This document shows, piece after piece, positions 19,956 to 24,416 of a DNA stretch of 45,753 nt; within the stretch, counting starts at the first letter, position 1; each line of letters starts with the position of its first letter. Where the stretch lies: contig CACABC010000007.1 of assembly GCA_902530635.1 (NCBI GenBank), positions 1 through 45,753 on the forward strand, in the 5' to 3' direction. Position numbers and translations under genes: made by a program. This DNA is from an uncultured Pelagibacteraceae bacterium (GTDB taxonomy: Bacteria; Pseudomonadota; Alphaproteobacteria; Pelagibacterales; Pelagibacteraceae). The notes under the pieces are model-generated. The model saw only the letters and a program-made list of their open reading frames with translations, was not told the DNA's origin and ran no database searches.

Positions 19956-20489
19956 TTATTTTTTTAAGTTTTCTGGTTTTTTATTTTCTTTTTTTTCTGA
20001 AACTTTTTTGGGTAACTCTGATTTTTCTTTTTGATTTTCTAAGTTACTTACTTTTGAAGCATCAGATTTAACAACTTCTGTTGGACTAGTTTTAATCTGA
20101 TCCTTAACTTCAACTTCTATTCCAATATTTTTTTTCATTTTTTCTGCGATTCTTGCAGATTTACCTTTTCTATCTCTTAAATAGTAAAGTTTTGCTCTTC
20201 TTACTTTTCCAGATCTAATAACTTTTATTGAGCTTACAATAGGACTATAAAGTGCAAATGTTCTCTCAACACCTTCACCAAAAGAAATTTTTCTTACTTT
20301 AAAAGAAGAATTAAGACTCCTATTTTTTTTAGCAATGCAAACCCCTTCAAAATTTTGAATTCTTTCTCTTTTTCCCTCAACGATTCTTACACCTACTCGA
20401 ATAGTGTCGCCTGGAAAAAATTCAGTTATTTTCTTCTTAGAGATTAGTTTTTCTAGGTTCGCTTTATTTATATCTTCAATGTTTTTCAT
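19956..20489 (-). CDS. rplS: Ribosomal protein L19 with a charged C-terminal extension, 177 aa
   Basis: L19 sits at the 30S-50S interface. Residues about 1-120 are the conserved protein: [30 protein letters not shown], then [19 protein letters not shown] and [21 protein letters not shown]. Bacterial L19 is usually 115-130 residues long; here a further 50 or so Lys/Glu/Ser-rich residues follow and look disordered. S16 in the same operon has a similar tail. The first 14 nt overlap the end of trmD, the usual neighbour. Confidence 0.96.
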
Positions 20490-21180
20490 TTTTTTTACTT
20501 TTTAAATATTTTTCCCAAAGATCTGGTCTCTGGCGACGTGTTATATCCTTAGATTGTGACAAACGCCAGTCCTTAATTTTAGCATGATCCCCGGACAATA
20601 GTACATCTGGAACACTTTTTTTTTCCCAAATTTGAGGTTTTGTATATTGTGGATATTCTAAAAGTCCATTTTCAAAACTTTCATCATTTTTAGATTTCTC
20701 ATTGCCTAATATACCTGGTAATAATCTTAGTACAGCATCAATTACTACAAAAGAGGCTGACTCTCCCCCAGATAAAATGTAATCACCAATGCTAACCTCC
20801 TCTATGTTTCTTGTACCTAAAACACGCTCATCAATACCTTCGAAATGACCACAAATTATATTGATGGTCTTCTCTTTTGTTAAGTTTTTAGCAAAATTTT
20901 GATCGAATTTTTTCCCTTTCGGAGAAAGATAAAAAATTTTCTCATTTTTTTTTATTTTACTATCTAAAGACTTTCCTAGGATGTCTGGTTTTAAAAGCAT
21001 TCCATTTCCACCACCAAAAGGTTTATCATCAACCGTTTTGTGTTTATCTTCTGCTGCGTCTCGAATATTTATAATCTCTAAGCTCCATATTTTTTTTTCT
21101 AAAGCTTTTCCGTACAGCCCTTTATTTAGTGGACCTGGAAAAATTTCTGGATACAAAGTAAATACTCGAGCCTTCCACAT
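20476..21180 (-). CDS. trmD: tRNA (guanine-37-N1) methyltransferase, 234 aa
   Basis: It methylates G37 of tRNAs reading CNN codons using S-adenosylmethionine, preventing +1 frameshifts. The start [19 protein letters not shown] and the motifs [29 protein letters not shown] and [29 protein letters not shown] form the trefoil-knot SPOUT fold and AdoMet site. The end has the [15 protein letters not shown] segment typical of TrmD. Length is normal (about 230-250). It sits between the SnoaL-like gene (11 nt upstream) and rplS (14-nt overlap). Confidence 0.96.
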
Positions 21181-21532: not shown

Positions 21533-21758
21533 TTCTTCTTTCTTAGCTTCCTGTTTAGGAGCTTCTTTTTTTGGTTATTCTTTATTAGCTTCATGTTTAG
21601 GAGCTTCTTTTTTTGGTTGTTCTTTCTTAGCTTCCTGTTTAGGAGCTTCTTTTTTTGGTTCTTCTTTCTTAGCTTCCTGTTTAGGAGCTTCTTTTTTTGG
21701 TTCTTCTTTCTTAGCTTCCTGTTTAGGAGCTTCACCTTTTGGTGTTTCTTTTTTTGGT
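21533..21758 (-). repeat. 42-nt tandem repeat coding the S16 tail
   Basis: Units begin at 21561, 21603, 21645 and 21687, exactly 42 nt apart, with a degenerate unit at 21729 and a partial one below 21561. Each encodes 14 residues of the type [14 protein letters not shown]. The unit at 21561-21602 has three C-to-A changes on the plus strand against the consensus (21577, 21584, 21593); the first makes the in-frame stop that ends rpsP. Being in frame and lying within a coding tail, the array is a protein repeat rather than a CRISPR. Confidence 0.9.
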
Positions 21759-22078
21759 TCTTCTTTGCCTTCTTTTTTTCTATCTTTTTTTGGAATTGCT
21801 TTCTGAGGATTGTTACGTGGTTTAGGCATTGGCATAATTTGGGCCTCCCCAAGAATTCTGGATACTCTTAAAGTTGGCTTTGCTCCTTTACTTAGCCAAT
21901 GTTTTATTCTTTCCGCCTCTATTTTAATTCTTTCCTTTTTTTCTTTTGGTAAAAGAGGATTGAATAGTCCTACCTTTTCAATAAATCTTCCATCTCTTGG
22001 AAATCTACTGTCTGCAATAACTATTTTATATATTGGTCTCTTTTTTGCACCAATCATCGATAGTCTTATTTTTAACAT
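21575..22078 (-). CDS. rpsP: Ribosomal protein S16 with repetitive charged tail, 167 aa, probably shortened by a nonsense codon
   Basis: Residues 1-80 are S16: [41 protein letters not shown] and the following [12 protein letters not shown]. Typical S16 has 80-110 residues. Here a Lys/Glu/Ala/Pro tail of about 75 residues follows, built of 14-residue repeats. The reading frame stops at a TAA at 21575-21577. That codon corresponds to GAA in the neighbouring repeats. Beyond it the frame stays open for 20 more codons of the same composition, ending at a TAA (21512-21514) that overlaps the next gene's ATG. The ancestral protein was therefore probably about 188 residues. Loss of the tail end is unlikely to affect the ribosomal core. 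A sequencing error is also possible. Confidence 0.93.
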
Positions 22079-22091
22079 TTTTTCCTTTCTT

Positions 22092-23441
22092 TCATTTTAG
22101 TTGATTAAAAAGTTCTGGAGGTACACCATCTTTGGGTACTCCACCCTTAGACATTTTTTTCATCATTTTTGACATCATTTTAAATTGTTTCAGCAATTTA
22201 TTTATCATCTGCACATCAGTTCCTGATCCTAAAGAAATTCTTTTTCTTCTTGAACCACTTATAATATCTGGATTTTCTCTTTCTCTTTTGGTCATTGATA
22301 AAATTATAGCTTCATTCATTGATAGTAATTTTTCATCAATATTTGCATTTTGCATTTGCTCTTTTACTTTGCCTACTCCAGGTAAAAGTGAAAGTACACC
22401 TTCCATACCTCCCATTTTTTTCATTTGTTTTAGTTGCATAAGATAGTCATCAAAAGTAAAAGAACCTTTTTTAATTTTTTCTTCAGTTAATCTTATTTTT
22501 TCTTCATCAAGATCTTGTGAAGCTTTTTCAACTAAGGAAACAATATCTCCCATACCAAGAATTCTGTTTGCCAACCTGTCAGGATGGAACGCTTCAAGAT
22601 CATCTATTTTTTCACCTACTCCTATAAACTTAATTGGTTTGCCAGTGGTCTGTTTCATGCTGAGGGCTGCCCCACCTCTTCCATCTCCATCGACTCTTGT
22701 TAAAATAATGCTAGTTAATTCTACAGCTTTATCAAATTCAGAAGCTAATTTGACTGCAATTTGTCCAGTTAAAGAATCAGCAACGAGTATGGTCTCAACA
22801 GGATTGGCTTCGGCTTTAATATTTTTTATTTCGCTCATCATATTTAAATCGACTTGAGTACGACCTGCTGTATCAAAAATTATAACATCTGATCCGCTGA
22901 GTGTTGCAGCATTATTTGCTCTTTTAGTAATATCAATTGGGATTTGGTCTTTTATAATTGGAAGAACATTTAAATTGTTCTTTTCACATAAAATCTTTAA
23001 TTGTTCCTGTGCGGCCGGTCTATAAACGTCCAAGCTTACTAATAAAATTTTTTTTTTAAAGTTTTTTTCTATATTTTTTGCTAGCTTAACTGCTGTAGTT
23101 GTTTTTCCAGATCCTTGCAGGCCAACTAATAATAGAGAAGCTGGCGGAACGGCTTTTAGGTTTATTTCCTCTACTTTGCTACCTAATACTTCAACCAACT
23201 GATCATAGACGATCTTAACAAGCATTTGTCCTGGTGAAGTAGATCGAATAATTTCTTGGCCAATAGCTTTAGGTTTAATATCTTCTATAAATTTCTTTAC
23301 TACGGGCAAAGCAACATCGGCAGCTATTAATGCCTGCCTGATTTCTTTTAAGCCTGTCTCTACCTGGCTTTCATTGAGCGAAGGTGCTTTTTTTAACTTG
23401 CTAAATATTCCTTCTAATTTATTTGTTAAATTTTCAAACAT
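22092..23441 (-). CDS. ffh: Signal recognition particle protein Ffh, 449 aa
   Basis: The SRP GTPase binds signal peptides and the 4.5S RNA and directs ribosomes to FtsY. The N domain occupies residues 1-90; the G domain has the P loop [15 protein letters not shown] (about 106-120), [20 protein letters not shown] and [13 protein letters not shown]. The methionine-rich M domain follows from about 300, with [16 protein letters not shown] and the RNA-binding SGSRRKRIS(L)GSG motif near 385-397, ending in [13 protein letters not shown]. Full length. It is preceded by a structured leader (see the ncRNA entry) and followed 13 nt later by rpsP, so SRP and ribosomal proteins share an operon. ftsY lies divergently nearby. 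Confidence 0.97.
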
Positions 23442-23545
23442 TTTTTATTTTTCCAACACCAATCGCACTAGTGGGCGAACCCTCGCTGACTAGTGTCGAT
23501 CCCTTTATTTCTAAAGGCACCGCAAAAACTATTATTTGCGGAAGT
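23442..23545 (-). ncRNA. Structured leader RNA of ffh, three hairpins; probable cis-regulatory element
   Basis: The transcript strand folds into three hairpins. Hairpin 1: CCGCAAA/TTTGCGG, 7 bp, at 23541-23520. Hairpin 2: CCTTTA/TAAAGG with a GAAA tetraloop at 23517-23502. Hairpin 3: CACTAGT/ACTAGTG, 7 bp, with inner GCGA/TCGC and two outer CG pairs across a bulge, at 23498-23464. This is the most GC-rich intergenic stretch here. Published comparative work on Pelagibacter reported a candidate cis-regulatory RNA before ffh (from memory); I take this to be that element but cannot check the match. The 4.5S RNA signature is absent, so it is not the SRP RNA itself. The ligand or regulator is unknown. 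Ends are approximate. Confidence 0.75.
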
Positions 23546-23551
23546 GACGAG

Positions 23552-23580
23552 AAGCTACAATTAAGGGTTTTAAAAGTCAA
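23552..23580 (-). promoter_or_regulatory. Probable ffh operon promoter
   Basis: On the minus strand TTGACT (23580-23575) and TAGCTT (23557-23552) are separated by 17 nt. Transcription would start near 23545, immediately before the first leader hairpin (stem from 23541), which supports both calls. The -35 hexamer overlaps the first codon of dapF on the other strand. Confidence 0.42.
23556..23561 (+). promoter_or_regulatory. Possible -10 box for dapF-ftsY-HPP
   Basis: TACAAT, one base off the consensus, lies about 19 nt before the dapF ATG on the plus strand. A -35 box at the right distance is not convincing. It overlaps the minus-strand -10 box of ffh, so the two directions could compete for polymerase. 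Confidence 0.28.
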
Positions 23581-24416
23581 TGAATAAAGATACTAATCAA
23601 ATTATGGCACTTATTAACGCTTACAAAATGGATGGTCTTGGAAATAATTTCGTAATTATTGATAGGAGAAAAAATACCTTAGAGATAAGCAAAGATAAAA
23701 TAGTGAGCATAGCAAATAAAAAAATAGTTCCTTTTGATCAACTAATTATTTTGGAAAAGGAAGAAAAAAATACTTTTCCAATAAAAATTTATAATCCAGA
23801 TGGAATTGAGGCAACAGCATGTGGAAATGGTGCTAGATGTGTTGCGTATTTAATTTTTCAAGAAAATAAACAAAAAAATATTTTAATAAAAACAAAAGAA
23901 AGAGTTTTAAGTGCTGAAGTAGTCGACAAAAAAAATGTCGAAATAAATATGGGCAAACCAAAATTTAGCTGGGAAGAAGTACCACTTAGTGAAAACATGG
24001 ATACTAAACAAGTTACTATAGATTTTTTAGATAAAGAACTTGGTAAAGGATTTTGCTTAAATGTTGGAAATCCTCATATTATTTTTTTTGTAAAAGATTC
24101 TTCTAAAATTGACATTAAAAAAATAGGACCAAAAATTGAAAATTACAGATTCTTTCCTGAAAGAATTAATGTGACCTTTGCTCAAGTTTTGGACAAAAAA
24201 AATATCAAAGTCAATGTTTGGGAAAGAGGAGCTGGCCAAACAAAAGCGTGCGGTACTGCAGCCTGTGCTGTTGCAGTTTCTGCTTCTATAAAAGGCTTAA
24301 CAGATAAAAATTTAGAGATTCATTTTAAGGAAGGGAATCTTAAAATTAACTACAAAGAAGAAATATTTATGGCCGGAAGTGTTTCTGATGTTAAGAAGAT
24401 CAACTTAGATATCTAA
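23580..24416 (+). CDS. dapF: Diaminopimelate epimerase, 278 aa
   Basis: It interconverts LL- and meso-diaminopimelate for lysine and peptidoglycan synthesis by a two-base, cofactor-free mechanism. The family start is NAYKMDGLGNNFVIIDRR. The two active-site cysteines are in TACGNGARC (about residue 81) and KACGTAACA (about residue 224). Length is close to the usual 270-280. I use the ATG at 23580; an ATG at 23604 (MALINAYKMDG) would also fit, and neither has a clear Shine-Dalgarno sequence. The stop overlaps the ftsY start by one base (TAATG). Confidence 0.93.
   Translation: MNKDTNQIMALINAYKMDGLGNNFVIIDRRKNTLEISKDKIVSIANKKIVPFDQLIILEKEEKNTFPIKIYNPDGIEATACGNGARCVAYLIFQENKQKNILIKTKERVLSAEVVDKKNVEINMGKPKFSWEEVPLSENMDTKQVTIDFLDKELGKGFCLNVGNPHIIFFVKDSSKIDIKKIGPKIENYRFFPERINVTFAQVLDKKNIKVNVWERGAGQTKACGTAACAVAVSASIKGLTDKNLEIHFKEGNLKINYKEEIFMAGSVSDVKKINLDI

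Follow-up and report, generated by a model that had tools for sequence, protein, structure and literature searches.

The ffh motif, the closest described relative of the RNA considered here, goes back to a 2009 paper, which took it from the ffh/dapF gap of Pelagibacter HTCC1062 and presented it as "a single bulged hairpin" (Meyer et al., available part of PMC2704228). In that part of the paper the motif is said not to resemble the portion of 4.5S RNA that binds Ffh, and a role for it in regulating ffh is also left open. Leaders of ribosomal protein genes are the other systems to be compared: an S16 leader candidate has been placed before rpsP-rimM in Flavobacteria, and L19 leaders have been named for Firmicutes and Flavobacteria (available part of PMC7247131). 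Regarding the ffh-rpsP-trmD-rplS operon itself, the accessible text of a review states that nothing is known about its regulation (PMC10931766), and among titles and the accessible portions of PMC2704228, PMC5596092, PMC7717549, PMC10931766, and PMC7247131 we found no proposal of S16 control for the ffh motif.

The RNA described below shares some features with these systems and differs from them in others. Compared with the published motif (Rfam RF01793), it stands in the same gap and has the same hairpin, P3, with the same conserved internal-loop cytosines; to this single bulged hairpin are added here a covarying second stem (P2), a one-nucleotide linker, and a 13-nt tail, and in the window's order also a further hairpin, P1. 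The S16 leader candidate of Flavobacteria is likewise structured and located before rpsP, in an rpsP-rimM neighborhood, but it comes from another phylum and is likened to our RNA by gene context, whereas the alphaproteobacterial operon starts with ffh (available part of PMC7247131). The L19 leaders have as their target a ribosomal protein that is also encoded in the ffh operon; no such match was listed in the window. Overall, the element belongs to a known family, but one that is larger and more widespread than recorded and probably named after the wrong gene.

In the window, that is, the whole stretch of 45,753 nucleotides that was analyzed, the operon reads as follows:

22092 to 23441, minus strand: ffh (SRP54), the first operon gene; Pfam PF00448, PF02978, and PF02881
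21575 to 22078, minus strand: rpsP (ribosomal protein S16), the second operon gene; Pfam PF00886
21192 to 21512, minus strand: SnoaL-like/DUF4440 open reading frame of 106 aa, between rpsP and trmD
20476 to 21180, minus strand: trmD; Pfam PF01746
19956 to 20489, minus strand: rplS (ribosomal protein L19); Pfam PF01245

The SnoaL-like frame occupies the rpsP-trmD gap, which is the usual site of rimM, and S16 of the window carries a repetitive Lys/Glu/Pro/Ala-rich C-terminal tail (approximately 21575 to 21760, minus strand). Both dapF and ftsY are divergent from the ffh operon. The first ATG of dapF (23580, plus strand) overlaps the -35 element of ffh; if dapF instead starts at 23604 (plus strand), the gap is 162 bp long, which is closer to the 159 bp reported for HTCC1062 (PMC2704228, available part). 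The initial annotation had described this gap as unusually GC-rich, which is fair, if not extreme: its GC content is 40.6% (23442 to 23579) versus 31.5% for the window, and 6% of 104-nt windows match or exceed the GC content of the 104-nt leader. The same annotation had pointed to an ffh-associated RNA described in Pelagibacter and suggested a covariance-model search; the leader matches the full-length RF01793 ("ffh") model at 54.5 bits, against a gathering threshold of 35, and the Pelagibacter RNA is this same element from the same ffh/dapF gap (PMC2704228, available part). The leader is an ffh-associated, probably cis-regulatory RNA. Its features, all on the minus strand, are as follows:

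23575 to 23580, minus strand: -35 element TTGACT, from the sequence; TTGAC is found upstream of P3 in 132 of 136 loci
23552 to 23557, minus strand: -10 element TAGCTT, from the sequence, at a 17-nt spacer; TAGGTT stands at a 17-nt spacer in several other loci
23442 to 23545, minus strand: predicted leader RNA, from an inferred start (A at 23545, 7 nt past the -10 element) to the base before the ffh start codon; promoter conserved, fold z -4.7
23520 to 23541, minus strand: hairpin 1 (P1), 7 bp; in 53 leaders from the window's family, 98.4% of the cells are paired
23497 to 23522, minus strand: hairpin 2 (P2) in its extended form, CGGU/AUCG, a G.G mismatch, and the GAAA-capped 6 bp; from covariation
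23502 to 23517, minus strand: GAAA-capped 6-bp hairpin (inner P2); from sequence and fold
23496, minus strand: single-nucleotide linker between P2 and P3, A in the window and A or C elsewhere; from position frequencies
23466 to 23495, minus strand: hairpin 3 (P3), the known ffh motif stem, with 7 bp, a conserved C.C mismatch, 4 bp, and a tetraloop; RF01793 at 54.5 bits
23453 to 23465, minus strand: conserved 13-nt tail C-G-A-U-U-n-n-U-G-U-U-G-G; from position frequencies in 159 and 137 loci
23458 to 23510, minus strand: stretch matched by RF01793, whose structure line pairs P3 alone

The three hairpins predicted in the initial annotation are all present on the minus strand (7 bp; GAAA-capped 6 bp; and a two-part stem of 7 bp, internal loop, and 4 bp), and the region from 23436 to 23553 folds at -38.9 kcal/mol, a value equaled by none of 200 shuffles (z -4.7). 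The promoter proposed there, TTGACT-17-TAGCTT, draws its support from comparison of loci rather than from the consensus: a simple sigma-70 scan of 23300 to 23700 did not list the site, but the position of TTGAC is conserved. In 132 of 136 loci, TTGAC is located no more than 160 nt upstream of P3, where shuffles would give about 16 such loci, and 122 of its 139 occurrences are located 71 to 100 nt upstream of P3. This distance places the transcript start just before P1 in the window, and its conservation argues against a start downstream of the hairpins. At the other end of the leader, the GG of the tail together with A at 23452 would form a GGA resembling a Shine-Dalgarno sequence, 10 nt ahead of the ATG of ffh.

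Two further helices in the predicted fold of the window were discarded as general features. In the minimum-energy fold, GAUCG pairs with CGAUU of the tail, which would extend P3 to 23461 to 23501; as a conserved stem this extension is rejected, since the second base of the tail varies (mostly G or A) against a constant C. A helix that would close the leader by pairing its 5' end with the tail is, judged by eye and uncounted, apparently present in only some leaders.

The GAUCG that Rfam leaves unpaired is, in the window, the 3' arm of P2. Elsewhere this stem is formed by other bases, including CAGUCC/GGAUUG, CACUC/GAGUG, GCGCC/GGUGC, and GCCCC/GGGGC, with CAAUCC/GGAUUG in locus L176. In a plain MAFFT alignment of 14 loci drawn from 19 with a short P2, four of the five modeled pairs of P2 and five of the 11 pairs of P3 have changed on both sides; for these loci, the covariation score of P2 and P3 together is 0.518, compared with 0.213 when shuffled (0 of 500 shuffles as high) and at most 0.113 when slid. 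A larger alignment fitted to the model has 97 rows from 96 of 97 loci (a weak second match in L159 is included and L042 is missed), and 15 of 16 pairs in it show changes on both sides, although such an alignment leans toward the structure. Within the 53 leaders of the window's family, seven of 10 pairs of the extended P2 covary, and two of the seven P1 pairs have changed on both sides. The covariation looked for among relatives, whose absence would have counted against the initial annotation, is therefore present in the hairpins.

Copies were left out of the 97 loci if their flanks were short, if they contained N, or if their identity was 85% or more. P2 was located in them by folding the sequence just upstream of P3, a procedure that favors finding a stem; mean energies were -8.3 kcal/mol versus -3.1 kcal/mol with shuffled upstream sequence, and a simple P2 below -3 kcal/mol was obtained in 70 of 97. 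Under a strict rule of one nucleotide between the stems, folding did not find P2 in 20 of the 97 loci. The linker itself is A in 92 of 159 loci and C in the other 67, and the C.C mismatch of P3 is present in all 159 loci found by Rfam and in all 40 found by R1 (a model described below), the stem finder having given some weight to both cytosines. The core of the element is P2 and P3 one nucleotide apart, followed by a conserved single-stranded tail. G-U pairs are common, occurring at the third pair of P2 in 49 of 70 loci and at the third pair of P3 in 26 of 97, as would be expected for an RNA and not for a DNA operator. An operator was excluded on these grounds, and because the same single strand is kept in the copies examined.

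A covariance model containing P2, P3, and the tail, designated R1, finds more copies than RF01793. The Rfam model was positive in 125 of 149 and in 106 of 385 genomes in two scans (224 distinct genomes), and 159 of the copies were retrieved. With R1, the RNA is detected in 208 of the same 385 genomes of the class, the model recovering 95 of the 106 Rfam-positive genomes and adding 113, a gain that may stem from its other seed lineages and from the tail besides P2; the 11 that it misses are G146, G260, G281, G330, G379, G423, G459, G462, G470, G500, and G501. Across 398 genomes from the phylum, 54 were positive, all from the own, same-family, or same-class groups, the out-of-class share of the 398 not being given. 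For gene context, 40 copies found by R1 alone were used, namely, those of 39 of the 113 added genomes and a second copy in G149.

The gene downstream of the motif is nearly always ffh, with rpsP close behind. Among the 159 Rfam-found loci, 124 have ffh followed by rpsP, 30 have ffh alone, four have rpsP directly, and one is a stub; the 30 are mostly stretches too short to reach rpsP, one being a broken contig (L114), and all 14 longer stretches show ffh and then rpsP. All 40 copies found by R1 alone stand before ffh, with rpsP next. Thus rpsP is near the motif in every sufficiently long locus except the one broken contig, and it is the nearer of the two ribosomal protein genes sought (rpsP and rplS) in every checked locus. 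The gene rplS was found downstream in 32 of the 40 R1-found loci at the first search, in L322 with closer queries, and in L318, L321, and L338 in longer stretches. Closer queries did not find rplS beyond trmD in G423 (within 19 kb) or G459 (4.4 kb), nor, in G155, trmD or rplS within the 2.3 kb that follow rpsP. Across Alphaproteobacteria, the RNA keeps both its strand and its position as the first element of the ffh-rpsP-(rimM)-trmD-rplS operon. A conserved, covarying RNA at the 5' end of an operon with ribosomal protein genes, as seen here, is one mark of a ribosomal protein leader.

The contig behind L114 (G370; also L355) was considered as a separation of ffh from rpsP and set aside, as it is broken and looks chimeric: its ffh frame ceases to resemble Ffh after some 155 codons and continues into other genes, by eye dnaN and dnaA.

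Placement upstream of ffh, for which RF01793 is named, holds in the window (ffh from 23441, motif down to 23458) and in 154 of 159 loci, but not in order f51, which may be the HIMB59 group. This order was traced from the four loci with rpsP directly after the motif and comprises 18 genomes of 0.9 to 1.4 Mb (G191, G315, G410, G486, and G523 to G536; loci L164 to L177). PF00448, which covers Ffh and FtsY, was over its cut-off in none of the 18, whereas 14 of 14 controls were positive; one genome, G525, had a single sub-threshold match (20.5 versus 22.7 bits). The Ffh protein of the window, used as a query, found nothing in the four f51 genomes tried and gave matches in G294 and G163. RF00169 (4.5S RNA) likewise had no match up to E 10 in any of the 18 genomes. 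Control genomes were taken from the window's order, with completeness of 98% or more; RF00169 matched in 14 of 14 but exceeded the cut-off in only nine, and thus a diverged 4.5S RNA of f51 could be missed. SecY was found in 14 of the 18 genomes and in all six of the more complete ones. Order f51 has apparently lost the whole signal recognition particle (SRP); the one accessible passage from the literature on the HIMB59/PS1 clade and the SRP does not concern such a loss.

RF01793 was nevertheless found in 14 of the 18 f51 genomes, and in all 14 loci the rpsP match starts 27 to 34 nt past the modeled end of the RNA, with no ffh match. Covariation in this order is weak: two pairs of P3 and two of P2 have changed on both sides, a count equaled by 110 of 500 shuffles, while the covariation score is 0.262 versus 0.165 when shuffled and was equaled by none of 500. 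Retention of the RNA before rpsP in genomes without detectable SRP suggests that the RNA does not depend on the SRP, and its lasting association is with rpsP despite the family being named after ffh. In some f51 genomes (L164 to L166) there is no room for rimM between rpsP and trmD, which, together with the unrelated frame at this site in the window, speaks against RimM as the partner. It should be noted that 4.5S RNA is elusive also in the window's genus: the window's own genome (G000, 86% complete) and G030 of the same genus had no match up to E 10, and G027, also of that genus, had a match of 25 bits only, which raises the possibility that the SRP RNA has diverged strongly in this genus.

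We consider the best explanation, with a probability of roughly 0.45 and on the basis of sequence comparison, to be that the leader is a cis-acting 5' leader of the ffh-rpsP-(rimM)-trmD-rplS operon through which an operon product, S16 in the first place, regulates its own synthesis. An operon product, most likely S16, would bind P2-P3 when in excess over its rRNA site, and binding would lower expression of the operon, such that the supply of Ffh would follow ribosome assembly. S16 is put first for three reasons: rpsP is near the motif in every sufficiently long locus but the broken contig; a candidate S16 leader is on record from Flavobacteria (available part of PMC7247131); and rplS is absent from the stretches of G423 and G459 and both trmD and rplS from that of G155. 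No S16 or L19 leader family was among the five Rfam matches of the leader up to E 10, the coverage of such leaders in Rfam 15 being uncertain. The element probably controls ribosome-linked genes rather than sensing the SRP, and the family named after ffh would then be filed under the wrong gene. If the leader senses an operon product, it would offer a small RNA target of about 60 nt, and if the S16 reading is true, SRP supply would be slaved to ribosome assembly and not sensed by the SRP.

L19 or TrmD would fit the gene order almost as well as S16, and a leader of the same kind with one of these as its ligand is an unlikely alternative. In f51, trmD and rplS follow rpsP wherever the sequence reaches, rplS lies downstream in most R1-found loci (32 of 40 at the first search), and L19 leaders have been named in two other phyla, as mentioned above. 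L19 leaders of Firmicutes and Flavobacteria stand before rplS itself. However, rpsP is nearer than rplS in every checked locus, and rplS is missing from G423 (19 kb) and G459, and trmD and rplS from G155, within the limits set by these assemblies and stretch lengths.

The output of such a leader is probably lineage-specific. Of 115 loci from orders other than the window's, 55 have four or more consecutive U after P3, compared with 10% when shuffled, and in many Alphaproteobacteria an output resembling a transcription attenuator may be inferred. In the window's order, the U-run is present in two of 22 loci, the same as when shuffled, and no terminator was found in this region of the window; because the U-run is not enriched there and the tail lies over the ribosome-binding region, blocked translation is the likelier output in that order. 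The U-run also fits an attenuator or mRNA-stability element that has no dedicated protein ligand, in which P3 and the U-run would fix the level of read-through or P1 to P3 would protect the 5' end. However, an invariant C.C mismatch and a tail conserved beyond the U-run exceed what a terminator needs, and the window's order keeps these other features without enrichment of the U-run, and we regard this explanation as rather improbable.

Rfam classifies RF01793 as type "sRNA", and a small RNA made from the ffh promoter and acting in trans would agree with the transcripts in marine metatranscriptomes cited in PMC2704228, with a transcript in Mesorhizobium huakuii (PMC5596092), and with the "ffH leader RNA" of Bartonella (PMC7717549), as far as the available parts of these papers go. 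We consider this improbable, as the examined copies keep the same operon head on the same strand, and short leader fragments are equally expected from attenuation. Feedback by SRP components, the idea offered in the initial annotation, would have Ffh, FtsY, or 4.5S RNA bind the leader and adjust ffh expression, and although Ffh is an RNA-binding protein and ffh is the next gene in 154 of 159 Rfam-found and 40 of 40 R1-found loci, this is highly improbable, given that 4.5S RNA is, like the leader, a hairpin RNA tied to Ffh by name but the leader had no match to RF00169 in an Rfam search up to E 10, in line with the dissimilarity reported by Meyer et al. (available part of PMC2704228), and that 14 of the 18 f51 genomes keep the RNA directly before rpsP with no detectable Ffh, FtsY, or 4.5S RNA.

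Returning to regulation by an operon product, P1 and P2 might provide a switch in the window's family. There, P1 ends in CGG, and these three bases also begin the 5' arm of the extended P2. In the alignment of the 53 leaders, the P1 partner of column 36 is column 14 (GC in 38, AU in 14, and GU in one), and its P2 partner is column 61 (CG in 38, UA in 14, and another combination in one). A tree of Ffh shows three changes at column 36: two are accompanied by matching changes in both partners, whereas in the third (L077) column 61 changes to a non-pairing base; only two independent pairs remain on well-supported branches of the tree. In the free RNA of the window, the fold without the extended P2 is predicted to be preferred (-35.2 versus -27.1 kcal/mol). 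One base covarying with its partners in two exclusive stems hints at a switch, on the strength of two concordant evolutionary events, and because the predicted free fold favors P1, the class-conserved extended P2 could be the bound state. P1 would then represent the free state and extended P2 the bound state, each precluding the other.

Beyond this family, the 5' segment is more complementary to the P2 arm of its own locus than to permuted arms, both within the window's order (21 loci; 0 of 200 permutations) and among other loci with CGG or UGG arms (22 loci; 0 of 200), kinship being uncontrolled in both comparisons. As a rule for all Alphaproteobacteria, the P1/P2 overlap was rejected, the remaining 63 loci being unclear (5 of 200 permutations, kinship again uncontrolled). 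A more far-reaching reading is that of a class-wide leader in which S16 would bind the tandem P2-P3 with its C.C mismatch and set S16, TrmD, L19, and Ffh together, acting as a two-state switch in the window's family, perhaps also in further groups whose arm is CGG or UGG, and having been passed to rpsP upon loss of the SRP. We hold it to be tentative and somewhat doubtful as a whole.

Finally, a few genomes show more than the single copy. G149 and G493 have two R1 matches each; the second copy in G149 (L313) also heads ffh-rpsP, and this assembly, with 7% contamination, is perhaps mixed. In L153 (G478, at about 150 to 240), the 3' arm of P3 and the U-run tail are duplicated in tandem before ffh.
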